From Mycobacteriales bacterium (lineage in GTDB: Bacteria; Actinomycetota; Actinomycetes; DATLTS01): a DNA stretch of 64,000 bases. The translations under genes were made by a program, and so were the position numbers. The notes beneath the pieces are model-generated. The model was not told the DNA's origin. It made no database searches and saw only the letters and a program-made list of their open reading frames with translations. Location: positions 44,164 to 108,163 of the forward strand of contig DATLTS010000015.1 in NCBI GenBank assembly GCA_035533475.1, read 5' to 3'. Below are positions 18,693-24,115 of this stretch, in pieces (within the stretch, counting starts at the first letter, position 1; each line of letters opens with the position of its first letter).

Positions 18693-18935
18693 TCAGCCGC
18701 GCAGGGCCGCGGTGAGCTCGGTGACGCTCGGGTTGCTCAGCGCGGTCCCGTCCGGAAGGAGCACCGTCGGCACGGTCTGGTTGCCGCCGTTGACCGACAT
18801 GACGAACTCGGCGGCATTTGGATCACGGTCGATGTCGACCTCCGCGAACGAGATCCCGGCCCGCTCCAGGTGCCGCTTGAGCCGGGTGCAGTACCCGCAC
18901 CACGGCGTGCTGTAGAGCGTCAGCTGGCCGGACAC
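18693..18935 (-). CDS. mrx1: Mycoredoxin (glutaredoxin-fold, Mrx1 type)
   Basis: 80 residues: QLTLYSTPWCGYCTRLKRHL, with the CGYC redox site at about 11-14 and the cis-Pro segment NQTVPTVLLPDG. These are hallmarks of mycoredoxin-1 (Rv3198A), which reduces mycothiol mixed disulfides, implying the host makes mycothiol. I place the start at GTG 18935 with GGAGG five bases before it; the much longer open frame upstream runs antisense through uvrD2 and is not a gene. It is convergent with nudC and divergent from uvrD2. Confidence 0.9.
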   Translation of the reverse strand: MSGQLTLYSTPWCGYCTRLKRHLERAGISFAEVDIDRDPNAAEFVMSVNGGNQTVPTVLLPDGTALSNPSVTELTAALRG

Positions 18936-19016
18936 CGAACCTCCATCAGGAAAGACTGCCGTGGTCAACACCGTGGGGCCCGTGGTCGTTCCCCGCGGAC
19001 TGGCAGGATGCCCGTA

Positions 19017-21059
19017 ATGACCCCCGAGGACGTGCTCGCCGCGCTGGACCCCGAGCAGCGGACGGCCGTCGAGGCGATCCGCGGGCCGGTCTGCATCCTC
19101 GCCGGCGCCGGAACCGGGAAGACCCGGACGATCACCCACCGGATCGCCTACGGGGCGCTGATCGGGGCCGCACCCGCCGAACAGGTCCTCGCGGTTACCT
19201 TCACCACCCGGGCGGCGAGTGAACTGCGCACCCGGCTGCGCGGCCTCGGGGTCGGCCAGGTCGCCGCCCGGACCTTCCACGCCGCCGCCCTCGCACAGCT
19301 CAAGTACTTCTGGCCACGAATCGTCGGCGGTGGTTTCCCGGAGATCGTCGAGAGCAAGCTGAGGCTCGTCGGGGCTGCGGCCGCGCGGGCGCGGGTGACA
19401 CCCGGCAGTGCCGAGCTCAAGGACCTGGCCGCGGAAATCGAGTGGGCGAAATCCACGCTTTCCGGTCCGGACGGGTACCCGGCGGCGGCCGCTGCCGCCC
19501 GCCGGAGCCCGCCGCTGCCCGCCCCCAAGGTGGCCGAGGTCTACACCGCCTACGAAGCGCTCAAGGGCGAACGCGGGCTGCTCGACTTCGAGGATCTGCT
19601 GCTCGTCACGGCGGTCGCCCTGGAGGATCACGGGGACGTCGCGGCGGAGGTCCGAGCCCGCTACCGGTACTTCGTCGTCGATGAATACCAGGACGTCACC
19701 CCGGTACAGCAGCGTCTGCTCAACGCCTGGCTCGGTGGTCGCGAGGAGCTCTGCGTGGTCGGCGACGCGAGCCAGACCATCTACTCCTTCACCGGGGCGT
19801 CGGCCAACCACCTGCTGGATTTCCCGCGGCGCCATCCCCAGGCAACCGTCGTGCGGTTGGTCCGCGACTACCGGTCGACGCCGCAGGTCGTCAGCCTCGC
19901 CCGGTCGGTGCTCGCGGACGCGCCGAGCCGCCTCGAGCTCGTCGCGCAGCGGCCGGCCGGCGCCGCACCCGTGTTCCGAGAGTTCGCGGACGAGCCCGCC
20001 GAGGCCGAGGGGGTGGCCCGCCGCTGTCGGGAGTTGATCGACGCCGGAACGCGACCCGACGAGATTGCGGTGCTCTATCGGATCAACGCGCAGTCGGCCG
20101 CGTACGAAGCCGCGCTCGCCGGGCACGGCATCGCGTATCTGGTCCGCGGGGGTGAGCGCTTCTTCGACCGACCGGAGATCCGCCAGGCGATCGGCCTGCT
20201 CCGCGGCGCGGCTCGGTCTGACGGCGGCGGGGGGGACCTGGTGGCCGGGGTGAGCGATGTTCTCAGCGCGACCGGCTGGACAGCCACGGCACCGGACGGT
20301 CCCGGTGCGGTCCGTGAACGCTGGGAGTCGGTTCGGGCCCTGCTCGGCCTGGCCGAAGAGCTGGCGGCCGGGAACCCGCGGGCCGACCTGGCTGACCTCG
20401 TCGCCGAACTTGCCGAGCGCACCGCCGCCCAACATCCGCCGATCGTCGCGGGGGTCACCCTGGGCTCGCTGCACTCCGCGAAAGGCCTCGAATGGGATGC
20501 GGTCTTCCTCGTCGGGCTGGTCGACGGGGTGCTACCCATCACCTACGCGGTGACCGAGGAACAGATCGCCGAGGAGCGCCGGCTGCTCTACGTCGGCATC
20601 ACCCGGGCCCGACAGCACATCTGGCTGTCCTGGGCCGGTTCACGAGTCCCGGGCGGTCGCCGGGGGCGGTCCCCGAGTCGGTTCCTGGACGGCCTGACTC
20701 CTGGCGGCACCGGACCGCCGGTCGGCCGGCCCGGACGTGGTCCGCGTCCCGGACCGGTGATGTGCCGGGTGTGCGGGAAGCCGGTACGGGCGCCGGTCGA
20801 GCGCACGCTCGGTCGCTGTGCCGGCTGCCCCGGCAGCCTGGACGAGGGGCTGTTCGACCGGTTGAAGGCCTGGCGTCTCGACGCGGCCCGGACCCTGGGC
20901 CAGCCGGCCTACTGCGTGTTCACCGACGCGACCCTCACCGCGATCGCCGAACAGAAGCCGGCGACGACGGAGGCGCTCGAGGCGATCCCGGGGGTCGGCG
21001 CGACCAAGCTCACCAAGTTCGGGCCGGCGGTTCTCGACCTCGTCGCTGCCGCAGGCTGA
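19017..21059 (+). CDS. uvrD2: UvrD2: superfamily 1A helicase with HRDC domain
   Basis: 680 residues. The motor has GAGTGKTRT (Walker A, about 30-38), TFTTRAASELR, VVDEYQDVTPVQ, VGDASQTIYSFTGA, SLHSAKGLEWDAVFLVG and LYVGITRAR. After about residue 570 come a paired-Cys zinc motif (CRVCG and CAGCPGS) and a C-terminal HRDC domain ending GVGATKLTKFGPAVLDLV, the exact layout of mycobacterial UvrD2. I chose ATG 19017 because the AGG at 19005-19007 is nine bases upstream; ATG 19008 abuts it. Role: 3'-5' unwinding in DNA repair, with UvrD2 essential in mycobacteria. Confidence 0.93.
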   Translation: MTPEDVLAALDPEQRTAVEAIRGPVCILAGAGTGKTRTITHRIAYGALIGAAPAEQVLAVTFTTRAASELRTRLRGLGVGQVAARTFHAAALAQLKYFWPRIVGGGFPEIVESKLRLVGAAAARARVTPGSAELKDLAAEIEWAKSTLSGPDGYPAAAAAARRSPPLPAPKVAEVYTAYEALKGERGLLDFEDLLLVTAVALEDHGDVAAEVRARYRYFVVDEYQDVTPVQQRLLNAWLGGREELCVVGDASQTIYSFTGASANHLLDFPRRHPQATVVRLVRDYRSTPQVVSLARSVLADAPSRLELVAQRPAGAAPVFREFADEPAEAEGVARRCRELIDAGTRPDEIAVLYRINAQSAAYEAALAGHGIAYLVRGGERFFDRPEIRQAIGLLRGAARSDGGGGDLVAGVSDVLSATGWTATAPDGPGAVRERWESVRALLGLAEELAAGNPRADLADLVAELAERTAAQHPPIVAGVTLGSLHSAKGLEWDAVFLVGLVDGVLPITYAVTEEQIAEERRLLYVGITRARQHIWLSWAGSRVPGGRRGRSPSRFLDGLTPGGTGPPVGRPGRGPRPGPVMCRVCGKPVRAPVERTLGRCAGCPGSLDEGLFDRLKAWRLDAARTLGQPAYCVFTDATLTAIAEQKPATTEALEAIPGVGATKLTKFGPAVLDLVAAAG

Positions 21060-21062
21060 GCG

Positions 21063-21917
21063 ATGACGGCCGCCCTGGATGCATTGGTCGCGTTGCTCGA
21101 TCTCGAGCAGATCGAGCTCGACATCTTCCGCGGCACGGGGCCCGCGGAGGCCCGGCCGCGGGTCTTCGGGGGCCAGGTGGCGGGGCAGGCCCTGGTTGCG
21201 GCCGGTCGTACCGTGCCGGCCGACCGACCGGTGCATTCCCTGCACGCCTACTTCCTGCGCCCCGGCGATCCGGCGACCCCGATCGTCTACGAGGTCGACC
21301 GGCTGCGTGACGGCCGGTCCTTCACGACCCGGCGGGTGGTGGCGGTCCAGCACGGCCAGCCGATCTTCAACCTCTCCGCGTCGTTCCACCATCACGAGCC
21401 GGGGATCGAGCACCAGGTGAAGATGCCGACCGTGGCAGACCCGGAGACGTTGCCGACCATGCGTGAGCGCCTCGCGCCCTACCGGGACCGTTTCCCCACC
21501 TGGTGGGACCGACCGCGCCCGATCGACATCCGTTACGTCGGTCAACCGCCCTGGGCCCCCCGCTCCGCCGACGACCGGGAGCCGGTCAGCCAGGTCTGGA
21601 TGCGGGCCGACGGGACGTTGCCCGACAACCCGCTGCTGCACGTCTGCGCCGTGACCTACGCGAGCGATATGACGCTGCTCGACTCGGCGCTCATCGCGCA
21701 CGGGCTGTCGCTGGACCAACCCAACGTTCAGGTGGCCAGTCTCGACCACGCGATGTGGTTCCATCGCCCGTTCCGGGCCGATGACTGGCTGCTCTACTCG
21801 CAGTCGTCGCCGTCCGCGTCCGGCGCGCGCGGGCTGGCGCAGGGTCAGTTGTTTGCCAGAGACGGTCGGCTCGTCGTCTCGGTGGTGCAGGAGGGGCTGC
21901 TCCGGGTCACGGGATGA
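21063..21917 (+). CDS. tesB: Acyl-CoA thioesterase II (TesB family)
   Basis: A 284-residue double hotdog-fold thioesterase. It shows RVFGGQVAGQALVAAGRTV, VHSLHAYFLRPGD and RDGRSFTTRRVVAVQ in the first hotdog, then LDHAMWFHRPFRADDWLLYSQ and the GLAQGQLFARDGRLVVSVVQEG finish of the second. These are TesB hallmarks, with the Asp/Gln catalytic layout. Starts four bases after uvrD2, so probably co-transcribed. Expected to release free fatty acids from medium- and long-chain acyl-CoA. Confidence 0.92.
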   Translation: MTAALDALVALLDLEQIELDIFRGTGPAEARPRVFGGQVAGQALVAAGRTVPADRPVHSLHAYFLRPGDPATPIVYEVDRLRDGRSFTTRRVVAVQHGQPIFNLSASFHHHEPGIEHQVKMPTVADPETLPTMRERLAPYRDRFPTWWDRPRPIDIRYVGQPPWAPRSADDREPVSQVWMRADGTLPDNPLLHVCAVTYASDMTLLDSALIAHGLSLDQPNVQVASLDHAMWFHRPFRADDWLLYSQSSPSASGARGLAQGQLFARDGRLVVSVVQEGLLRVTG

Positions 21918-21940
21918 TCACGACTTGCTGCGGGACCGGG

Positions 21941-21984
21941 TAATTCCATTGCCGGACACGGGTGGCGACGGCTACCCTGCGGGC
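21941..21984 (+). promoter_or_regulatory. Predicted whiB7 promoter with AT-rich WhiB7 recognition block
   Basis: TTGCCG (21949-21954) and TACCCT (21973-21978), 18 bases apart, form a sigma-A-like promoter. Immediately upstream lies TAATTCCA, an AT-rich block in a GC-rich genome. WhiB7-activated promoters are known to carry an AT-rich stretch abutting the -35, bound by the AT-hook. Transcription would start near 21985, leaving a leader of about 320 nucleotides. Confidence 0.6.
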
Positions 21985-22026
21985 GATATCCGGGTGATCC
22001 CGATCAGGAGCGACGGAGGTGACGGA

Positions 22027-22206
22027 ATGCGGCTGAGCATCACGCCGACGGCGTCCGCACCTGGCGTCGCGCCGGCCGTTGCGCCCCACTGGGTCTTCGA
22101 TCCGGCAGGGGCACTCGGCATGTCGGGCATCGGGAAGGCGCGGCTCAGCGCCAACCGCAATGCCGACGCCCAGCCGGCTCCGTGCCCCTCGAGGCCGCCG
22201 ATCTGA
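22027..22206 (+). CDS. Candidate upstream ORF in the whiB7 leader
   Basis: A 59-codon frame starting MRLSITPTASAPGVAPAV with a strong GGAGG seven bases before its ATG. It shows no protein-family character and is Pro/Ala-rich. Its stop (TGA 22204-22206) falls inside the first arm of an RNA structure that competes with the whiB7 attenuator, which is the arrangement expected for a regulatory leader peptide whose translation reports ribosome function. The peptide itself probably has no separate job. Confidence 0.55.
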   Translation: MRLSITPTASAPGVAPAVAPHWVFDPAGALGMSGIGKARLSANRNADAQPAPCPSRPPI

Positions 22207-22272
22207 CAGCGATGTCACGACCGGCACCTCGAGGCCGCGGAACCCGTCCGGGATCCGCGGCCTTCGTTTTTG
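22187..22272 (+). promoter_or_regulatory. whiB7 attenuator: mutually exclusive antiterminator and terminator
   Basis: Terminator: AGGCCGCGGA (22232-22241) pairs with TCCGCGGCCT (22254-22263), with CCCG-TC-CGGG nested in the loop and TTCGTTTTT following. Antiterminator: CCTCGAGG at 22187-22194 can pair with an identical self-complementary CCTCGAGG at 22227-22234, enclosing GCCG/CGGC and TGACA-GCGA-TGTCA helices. The second CCTCGAGG shares bases 22232-22234 with the terminator arm, so only one structure can form at a time. A ribosome finishing the uORF at 22206 would cover the first CCTCGAGG and favour termination. Confidence 0.75.
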
Positions 22273-22304
22273 TCCGATACCAGGTCCACGAGGAGGTGGC
22301 ACCG

Positions 22305-22574
22305 ATGCAGGACACCGCGTTCGACGTTGTCGCCGAGCCGGCTCTTCCCTGCTGGGACGTCGACCCCGATCTGTTTTTCGCCGAGTCCCCGGCTGACGTC
22401 GAGTTCGCCAAGGCGGTGTGTGGCGACTGCCCGTTGCGTCCGGCATGTCTGGCCGGGGCCCTCGAGCGGCGTGAGCCGTGGGGGGTCTGGGGGGGCGAGC
22501 TGCTCGTCGGCGGCGTTGTCGTCGCGCGCAAGCGACCGCGCGGGCGGCCACGCAAGAACGACGTGGCCGCGTGA
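22305..22574 (+). CDS. whiB7: WhiB7 transcriptional regulator of intrinsic antibiotic resistance
   Basis: 89 residues with four Fe-S cluster cysteines (Cys16, Cys39, Cys42, Cys48), the WhiB turn GVWGG (60-64) and a C-terminal AT-hook RGRPRK (79-84) preceded by KRP. The AT-hook is specific to the WhiB7/WblC subfamily. WhiB7 binds the primary sigma factor and activates efflux, ribosome-protection and modifying-enzyme genes on exposure to ribosome-targeting antibiotics. AGGAGGTGG precedes the ATG. The neighbourhood (uvrD2 upstream) matches mycobacteria. Expression is likely set by the attenuator and AT-rich promoter described above. Confidence 0.95.
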   Translation: MQDTAFDVVAEPALPCWDVDPDLFFAESPADVEFAKAVCGDCPLRPACLAGALERREPWGVWGGELLVGGVVVARKRPRGRPRKNDVAA

Positions 22575-22614
22575 CCTGACCTCTCCCCGCCCCGCACGGC
22601 GGGGAGAGGTCAGG
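22575..22614. terminator. 17-bp perfect inverted repeat after whiB7
   Basis: CCTGACCTCTCCCCGCC pairs perfectly with GGCGGGGAGAGGTCAGG around a six-base loop, starting at the first base after the whiB7 stop codon. There is no T tract, which is usual for actinobacterial hairpin terminators. Confidence 0.8.
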
Positions 22615-22639
22615 CCCGAGGGCGCACTAGGGTCGCACC

Positions 22640-24115
22640 GTGCCGATGCCTGACCGAGACGTGTCCTCGGTCCGCGTGTCCGGCAGGTCTGCCAACCTCG
22701 AGCGGGCGGTCGAGGCGCTCTGCGCGGAGCAGTTGGCAGGCATCGTCGATCTGGTCGCATACCCCGAGCCTGGGGCGGTCGTCGTCGCCAACTCCGATGG
22801 CGCCAGCCGGCTGTTCCCGGACGGCACCGTGGCCGAGCGGCTCTGGGGCGCCGATCCCGTGGCCGCCCAGGACCCGCTGGCCTTCGCCACGATCGAGGGC
22901 GAGCGGGCCGATCCGTCGCCGCCGAATTCCCGCAACTCCTACCCGCATGCGGCGGTCCGGCTGCATTCGCTGTTCGCCGACCCGCGCGCGCCGGACATCG
23001 CGGTCGTGCATACCGGGCGCCATTTCTGGCCCGAGCGCGGCGGTCACCTCGGCGAGCACGGGTCCCTCGGGGTCGTGCAGTCTCGGGCGCCGCTGCTGCT
23101 GTCCGGCCCGGGCATCGCGGGGCGCGGTCTGCTTTCCAGGGCAGCCAGGGTGGTCGACATCGCCCCCACCATGGCCTGGCTGTCCGGCGTCGATCTGGAC
23201 CGGCTCAGCGAGCTGGACGGATCGGCTCTGGTTGACCTTGCCGAGCGTGGCGCCCCGCGGGTCGTCGGATTGCTATGGGATGGCGCCAACAGCAACAGCC
23301 TGCTGGAGTTGGCCGGCTCCGGGGAATTGCCCGCGGTCGCCCGCTTGCTCGAGTCTGGATGCGCGCTCGCCGGCGGCGCGGTCGCCGAGTTTCCGAGCGT
23401 GACCCTGGTCAACCACACGTCGGCACTTACCGGCGTCGGCCCTGGCCGGCACGGCATCGTGCACAACGCCTACTTCGACCGGGCACTCGACGAGCGCGTG
23501 GTACCGAACGATTCCGGAAACTGGCATCGCGCGATGGACTGGCTACGGCCCGGCGTGAGCACTGTTTTCGAGTGGGTCGACGGGCCGACCGCCTGCGTGA
23601 ACGACCCGGTGGATCGGGGCGCCGACTATTCGACATTCGGTCTGATCCGCGACAGTCGGGAGTCCGGTGGGGCGAACGCCTTCCGCTCCTCCCTACCCGA
23701 CCCGAGGGAGGACCGGCACGCGACGCAGGAGTTCGTCGCCGACGGTGACTACGCATGGTCGACCCAGGTGGACGCAGCCGGGCTGTCTCAGATGCTCGGG
23801 CTGTGGGCCACGTTTGCGGCGGCGCCGCGGCTGACCTGGTGGAACACGACCCTCACCGACACCGGGCACCACAACGGTGGCCCGCATTCCCGGTCGGCGC
23901 ACGCCGCGCTGCGCGATGCCGACCGTCGGCTCGGTGCGTTCCTCGACCACCTGGACAGGGTCGGCGGCATGGACGACACCGTGTTCCTGCTCACCGCGGA
24001 TCACGGCTCGGAGGGCGCCGACCCGTCCTGCCGCGGTGACTGGGACGAGGCGCTTCGGGAGGCCGGCATCGCGTTCCGCGACGAGGCCTACGGCTTCCTC
24101 TACCTGGGGGTCTGA
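22640..24115 (+). CDS. Alkaline-phosphatase superfamily phosphodiesterase, unusual domain order
   Basis: A 491-residue protein of the type I phosphodiesterase/nucleotide pyrophosphatase group. Residues about 210-491 hold a recognisable core: VVGLLWDGANSNSLLEL, SVTLVNHTSALTGVGPGRHGIVHN and later the metal site LLTADHGSEG. Residues about 1-200 look like the closing part of the same fold (HTGRHFWPERGGHLGEHGSL, PLLLSGPGI, VVDIAPTMAWLSGV), placed before the core rather than after it. GTG 22640 has AGGG upstream; ATG 22646 is an alternative. No signal peptide. Substrate unknown. Confidence 0.75.
   Translation: MPMPDRDVSSVRVSGRSANLERAVEALCAEQLAGIVDLVAYPEPGAVVVANSDGASRLFPDGTVAERLWGADPVAAQDPLAFATIEGERADPSPPNSRNSYPHAAVRLHSLFADPRAPDIAVVHTGRHFWPERGGHLGEHGSLGVVQSRAPLLLSGPGIAGRGLLSRAARVVDIAPTMAWLSGVDLDRLSELDGSALVDLAERGAPRVVGLLWDGANSNSLLELAGSGELPAVARLLESGCALAGGAVAEFPSVTLVNHTSALTGVGPGRHGIVHNAYFDRALDERVVPNDSGNWHRAMDWLRPGVSTVFEWVDGPTACVNDPVDRGADYSTFGLIRDSRESGGANAFRSSLPDPREDRHATQEFVADGDYAWSTQVDAAGLSQMLGLWATFAAAPRLTWWNTTLTDTGHHNGGPHSRSAHAALRDADRRLGAFLDHLDRVGGMDDTVFLLTADHGSEGADPSCRGDWDEALREAGIAFRDEAYGFLYLGV

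Follow-up and report, generated by a model that had tools for sequence, protein, structure and literature searches.

Within the window, that is, the whole 64,000-nucleotide stretch of DNA analyzed here, a whiB7 gene occupies positions 22305-22574 of the forward (+) strand, which also carries all of the leader features described below. The 89-aa product matched the Whib family (Pfam PF02467, E 4.4e-15) and, when its translation was read by eye, displayed the four cysteines and the AT-hook of a WhiB7-type protein (CWD..CGDCPLRPAC, GVWGG, and RGRPRK), with RGRPRK being the AT-hook. The source genome comprises 3.27 Mb in 68 contigs and is the sole genome of its order in the collection searched. 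It contains six WhiB-like matches, with this gene being the best and the remaining five 43-51% identical. Relatives of whiB7 control antibiotic responses, and in mycobacteria whiB7 lies beside uvrD2. Here, the neighbors across 18870-24115 include a long UvrD-like helicase frame, named by eye from its translation; 21063-21917 encodes an acyl-CoA thioesterase and 22640-24115 a phosphodiesterase-type protein.

The gene is preceded by a leader of 320 bases, counted from a likely transcription start near 21985 that was placed from the -10 box, and the leader's fold was 4.1 sd better than those of 100 dinucleotide shuffles. The putative promoter (21940-21978) consists of an AT-rich GTAATT (21940-21945) located 3 nt before a -35 element TTGCCG (21949-21954), an 18-nt spacer, and a -10 element TACCCT (21973-21978). 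The WblC box has been given as GAAAWY, 3 nt upstream of the -35 element, in a passage of PMC7157823, and GTAATT agrees with it at five of six positions and with exact spacing. Downstream of the promoter, a Shine-Dalgarno GGAGG (22015-22019) precedes a uORF of 59 codons (22027-22206) that starts with ATG at 22027, ends with the peptide ...CPSRPPI*, and closes with TGA at 22204-22206, just before an intrinsic terminator (22233-22271). The terminator has a stem formed by 22233-22245 and 22250-22262 and a tail, TTCGTTTTT, at 22263-22271, and thus stands between the uORF and the Shine-Dalgarno GAGGAGG of whiB7 itself (22290-22296). A first-pass annotation, made from the letters of this DNA, had proposed the promoter with its AT-rich block ahead of the -35 element, the 59-codon uORF with its GGAGG, and the intrinsic terminator, all of which are present.

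Conservation of the leader in the class

Loci for comparison came from two scans. A scan of reference genomes contributed the best 80 loci among the matches listed, and 296 genomes drawn evenly from the class contributed 29 further loci besides the window's own (the best 30 matches); because these are the best matches of both scans, WhiB7 proteins similar to the query are over-represented in the set. A whiB7 match was present at 110 loci, of which 107 yielded a stem candidate, the exceptions being L036, L065, and L074. A further filter demanded a stem of the GGCCGCGG type followed by a T-rich tail; it kept 98 loci and removed L010, L011, L014, L018, L028, L049, L054, L075, and L103. Dereplication kept 52 of the 98 leaders. 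Across the class sample, 245 of the 296 genomes had a WhiB7 match at E 1e-15 or better.

The place at which the uORF closes was conserved. In 96 of the 98 leaders, a frame open for 30 codons or more ended 17-34 nt ahead of the terminator stem, versus 8% of control windows located 40-100 bases farther upstream, a count that required neither a start codon nor a Shine-Dalgarno sequence. Of 97 leaders, 58 had a promoter pattern, scored as an AT-rich 8-mer, TTG, 17-18 nt, and TAnnnT, 5' of the uORF, versus 0.1% of shuffled upstream regions; among the 60 leaders with at least 160 nt of sequence upstream of the uORF start, 51 had it. The terminator stem was strikingly constant among relatives, often taking the form GGCCGCGGAACCC...GGGATCCGCGGCC. 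When the 52 dereplicated leaders were aligned by sequence alone, its 12 pairs were formed in 94.6% of cells, double-sided changes occurred in 8 of the 12 pairs, and none of 500 shuffles scored as high on any of five measures, so that covariation backs the stem. Simple promoter and terminator scans over 21500-22700 flagged nothing, probably because they demand a sigma-70 promoter nearer to consensus and a tail richer in T; the evidence for both elements comes instead from conservation among relatives.

A covariance model built from the 52 leaders, whose own matches to it arise by construction, matched 202 of the 296 genomes of the class sample under strict filters (E 0.001 or better). For 126 genomes, the places of the model match and of the whiB7 match were both among those listed, and in every one of them the element lay on the same strand as the whiB7 match and 31-272 nt upstream of it. 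A single significant place was found in the source genome, the next one (E 0.011) being the same place on the opposite strand; run against 88 loci, the model returned whiB7 leaders plus weaker opposite-strand matches on the same stems. A search of the leader against Rfam 15 gave no match at gathering score, with the sole match being CcsR1 on the other strand (15 bits, cut-off 65.3), and a model of the element could therefore annotate whiB7 leaders automatically. At least one genome, G208, had a model match yet was not among the listed WhiB7 matches. Conversely, some genomes with WhiB7-like matches were not matched by the model at E 0.001, for example those of one family, f25, with sizes of 1.3-1.4 Mb (G024, G043, G061, G076, G090, and G102); in this family, loss or divergence may have affected the attenuator.

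The uORF peptides were also compared. A mid-uORF peptide motif, G[TSIA][GRS][LMVI][SPC], occurred in 9 of 50 uORFs versus 1.3 after shuffling; it was chosen post hoc and is absent from the window, and we make no claim for it. Where a GTGLS/GTRMS-like peptide lies in the middle of the uORF (e.g., L012, L019, and L100), several of the underlying DNA sequences read GGGAC..GT.TGTCC, which could form a small hairpin. The C-terminus of the uORF in relatives often reads W-S-P-P-V-stop or similar, and PPI-stop in the window (22187-22206). This trend may reflect only the RNA arms described below, or a slow Pro-Pro step may hold the ribosome at the end.

Predicted pairing between the uORF and the terminator

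Two copies of CCTCGAGG, at 22187-22194 and 22227-22234, form a predicted hairpin spanning 48 bases. The first-pass annotation had taken this hairpin for the antiterminator of a complete switch, in which the second word shares bases with the terminator and the uORF ends inside the first arm. The words, the hairpin, its span, and the overlap are all real. However, the overlap amounts to two bases (22233-22234), and the minimum-energy fold contains the hairpin and the terminator side by side. The uORF stop codon lies 10 bases beyond CCTCGAGG, within a nested hairpin (22197-22225; stem 22197-22208/22213-22225) that is predicted by the folds and shows compensatory changes in relatives. Additionally, when folding was restricted to RNA in which the terminator 3' arm had not yet been made, the competing helix was longer than the CCTCGAGG hairpin, adding 22179-22184 paired with 22236-22241, and the attenuator is to this extent not complete as first drawn. 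On folds and on the swap test given next, the 5' side of the antiterminator thus runs over 22179-22194, comprising a distal arm TCCGTG (22179-22184) and the proximal arm CCTCGAGG, both within the uORF, and its 3' side over 22227-22241, comprising the second CCTCGAGG and CGCGGA (22236-22241), the latter within the terminator 5' arm. In the fold of RNA ending at 22257, this extended helix occupies 8 of the 13 bases of that arm.

On the sequence-only alignment, the antiterminator pairs were formed in 57.3% of cells; of 500 shuffles, 0 reached the observed percentage of cells, 1 the covariation score, 7 the number of pair types, 23 the number of double-change cells, and 41 the number of double-change pairs, and all five measures peaked at the true register. 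This count is weak, a probable cause being register shifts of the distal arm among genera, and a swap test was therefore used, in which the pairing energies of a leader's own arms were compared with those of arms swapped between leaders. Across the 52 leaders, the distal arm paired with a mean of -13.40 kcal/mol for own and -11.83 kcal/mol for swapped partners (0 of 5000 permutations as good), and the proximal arm with means of -10.83 and -8.81 kcal/mol (0 of 5000 permutations). The same test on uORF sequence 52 bases farther upstream showed no effect (4844 and 2437 of 5000 permutations). Dereplication leaves some relatedness in the 52-leader set, which would affect the control region too. The swap effect is an average, and about one-third of foreign partners still outbind the leader's own. 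In the window, 69% of foreign uORF ends bind the distal arm better, so that its own distal pairing is weak; its proximal helix is strong (-15.3 kcal/mol), with only 6% of foreign uORF ends outbinding it.

With the terminator 3' arm left out, 87 of the 98 leaders had eight or more of the first 12 stem bases paired upstream, and the mean number of stem bases so paired was 9.2 versus 7.2 with the upstream part shuffled; by this measure of predicted folds, the excess of upstream pairing above chance is real but moderate. The refined model alignment was given 51 of the 52 leaders (L020 was left out) and retained 50, with L026 falling below the cut-off. On this model-fitted alignment of the proximal arm, stop hairpin, and terminator, which is biased towards its own structure, pairs were formed in 77.8% of cells, and double changes were seen in 19 of the 24 pairs, levels reached by none of 500 shuffles.

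The words themselves varied. A crude word test on the 98 leaders found CTCGAG in both arms of 5, arms of the CTGGAG/CTCCAG type in 33, and mixed or other arms in 60. CCTCGAGG/CCTCGAGG is one form of a covarying helix in which the pairing is conserved and the words are not. We had also considered CCTCGAGG as a rare word, an idea rejected on its 11 copies versus 3.4 expected in the whole window, where it is over-represented. The repeat alone is therefore weak evidence, and the strong evidence is the conservation of pairing. The first-pass annotation had staked its reading on the conservation, among relatives, of the words or of the uORF stop position, and had suggested looking for covariation in both stems. 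The words did not hold, though their pairing did, the stop position was kept, and covariation emerged in the terminator against shuffles and in the antiterminator through the swap test.

Ribosome position and competing explanations

The predicted balance between the two structures changes over a short distance of transcription. With RNA ending at 22257, the antiterminator state had an energy of -43.3 kcal/mol versus -39.6 kcal/mol for the best state without the distal arm, about 3.7 kcal/mol better, and with RNA ending at 22259 the order flipped (-43.3 versus -45.5 kcal/mol). This timing is borderline, in that shielding of 10 bases would already put the terminator ahead.

Ribosomes have a footprint of 31 bases, and such a footprint was placed with its P site at 13 codons and the remainder folded at RNA ends 22257 and 22271. 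At 22257, ribosomes at codons 1, 5, 10, 20, 30, and 40 left the terminator arm paired upstream at all six positions, five of them with the exact antiterminator helix. The sixth was codon 10, at which the distal part of the helix instead paired with 22007-22016, in the region of the uORF Shine-Dalgarno sequence, a possible extra alternative pairing. Ribosomes at codons 44, 46, 48, 52, 55, and 58, six of the seven late positions, let the 3' arm take over, and codon 50 gave another upstream pairing, with 22132-22145. With the ribosome at the stop codon, the 3' arm won at 22257 with 26- and 31-base footprints alike. At 22271, the terminator was the minimum-energy state at 12 of the 13 ribosome positions, stalled ones included, and it was likewise the minimum in 45 of the 52 full-length leaders folded without a ribosome. 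Because equilibrium folding alone thus predicts termination nearly always, we infer that the switch is kinetic, and read-through would rest on kinetics beyond the reach of folding.

Judged by sequence and by comparison, the locus combines a promoter, a uORF, a class-conserved terminator, and an arm within the last nine codons of the uORF that covaries with the terminator 5' arm. We consider it very probable that 21940-22304 is a uORF attenuator of the whiB7/wblC type, terminating after full translation of the uORF and permitting read-through if ribosomes stall early or never load. The earlier reading as a translation-sensing attenuator survives in its architecture of uORF, antiterminator, and terminator, which is conserved in the sampled class, but not as an exclusive switch by the CCTCGAGG words alone. 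In an uncovered leader with RNA to 22257, the antiterminator helix would hold its eight bases of the terminator 5' arm; a ribosome on the stop codon would cover that helix, and the terminator 3' arm would take over. The decision to terminate would be kinetic, and stalls in approximately the first 40 codons would induce, whereas those in the last 15 or so mostly would not. The switch would therefore sense how fast translation runs in general, not a single peptide or amino acid. WhiB7 would then likely boost its own promoter through the AT-rich box.

Other explanations take up parts of the same evidence. A narrower model, in which nothing beyond the 48-base CCTCGAGG hairpin serves as antiterminator and the bases that it shares with the terminator provide the competition, can point to a proximal helix that is strong in the window and is the main helix covered by a ribosome at the stop codon. 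We regard it as unlikely, given that the overlap leaves both hairpins standing and that the distal terminator arm covaries with the uORF as well. It is less likely again that the leader is an amino-acid-specific or arrest-peptide attenuator, with a codon run (e.g., Ala or Pro) or the nascent peptide as its sensor. In trp-type attenuators, the position of the ribosome likewise selects antiterminator or terminator. Among the 59 uORF codons, 12 encode Ala and 10 encode Pro, set against 13.8% Ala and 6.8% Pro in four neighboring proteins, and published work describes, in places, whiB7 responses to alanine or amino-acid starvation. However, no run of any single codon, as the trp type would have, was seen in the uORF by eye, its Ala and Pro being scattered, and Pro at -2 (31 of 50 leaders) and Val at -1 (19 of 50), which are among the commonest shared residues, coincide with the RNA arms and the stop hairpin. 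This objection carries some uncertainty, as Streptomyces uORFs visibly have blocks in common within the uORF body.

A constitutive partial terminator could also lower whiB7, with induction coming through the promoter by WhiB7 autoactivation and the uORF being incidental. The full-length energy minima, as well as the conserved promoter with its WhiB7-type box, would suit such an arrangement, but a plain terminator has no need for the conserved stop position or the conserved uORF-terminator complementarity, and we hold this to be very improbable. The attenuator reading can be taken further, to an RNA family that spans the class, is missing from Rfam, and uses the last nine uORF codons also as an antiterminator arm coevolving with the terminator. 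Such a family would act as a kinetic timer, with approximately the first 40 codons inducing, the last 15 or so blind, and the decision falling within about 2 nt (RNA end 22257-22259). We put this fuller picture forward tentatively, as possible but short of an even chance.

Relation to known attenuators

The mechanism is already in print for mycobacteria and Streptomyces, and the newness of the long helix, its covariation, and the blind zone is not established; Lee 2022 and Burian 2018, reportedly the primary papers on whiB7/wblC attenuation, may already draw these. The present analysis would extend a studied antibiotic-response switch to a lineage without another genome in the collection searched, and the swap test provides comparative evidence for coevolution of uORF and terminator that is independent of alignment. 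The predicted blind zone and decision point are open to in vitro testing.

Attenuation of whiB7/wblC by a uORF is described in passages of PMC10727445, PMC11550727, and PMC13393426, the second being a review that applies the same model to whiB7 and wblC. Passages of PMC4128351 report conserved attenuation in two mycobacteria with transcript data, and attenuation is cited as established in parts of PMC13393426, PMC13236596, and PMC12421871. The first-pass annotation's statement that leader attenuation is known in mycobacteria and Streptomyces agrees with these accounts as far as they go. According to one passage of an eLife paper (PMC12121999), no test of stalling within the whiB7 uORF had been made.

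Like Streptomyces coelicolor wblC and mycobacterial whiB7, as portrayed in sections of PMC10727445, PMC11550727, PMC4128351, and PMC7157823, the locus has a WhiB7 gene, a uORF with a Shine-Dalgarno sequence, and an intervening intrinsic terminator. It further resembles the whiB7/wblC attenuators of those partial accounts in a predicted antiterminator overlapping uORF and terminator and in a WhiB7-type promoter box. It differs from them in its host, whose order has no other genome in the collection, and from most leaders in that both of its arms carry the palindromic CCTCGAGG and in a distal pairing weaker than that of most foreign partners. The Mycobacterium tuberculosis ilvB1 attenuator, in the description given in part of PMC13236596, is similar in that the position of the ribosome in the leader frame picks antiterminator or terminator. 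Unlike ilvB1, the present leader shows no run of regulatory codons for one amino acid and has its arm at the 3' end of the 59-codon frame.
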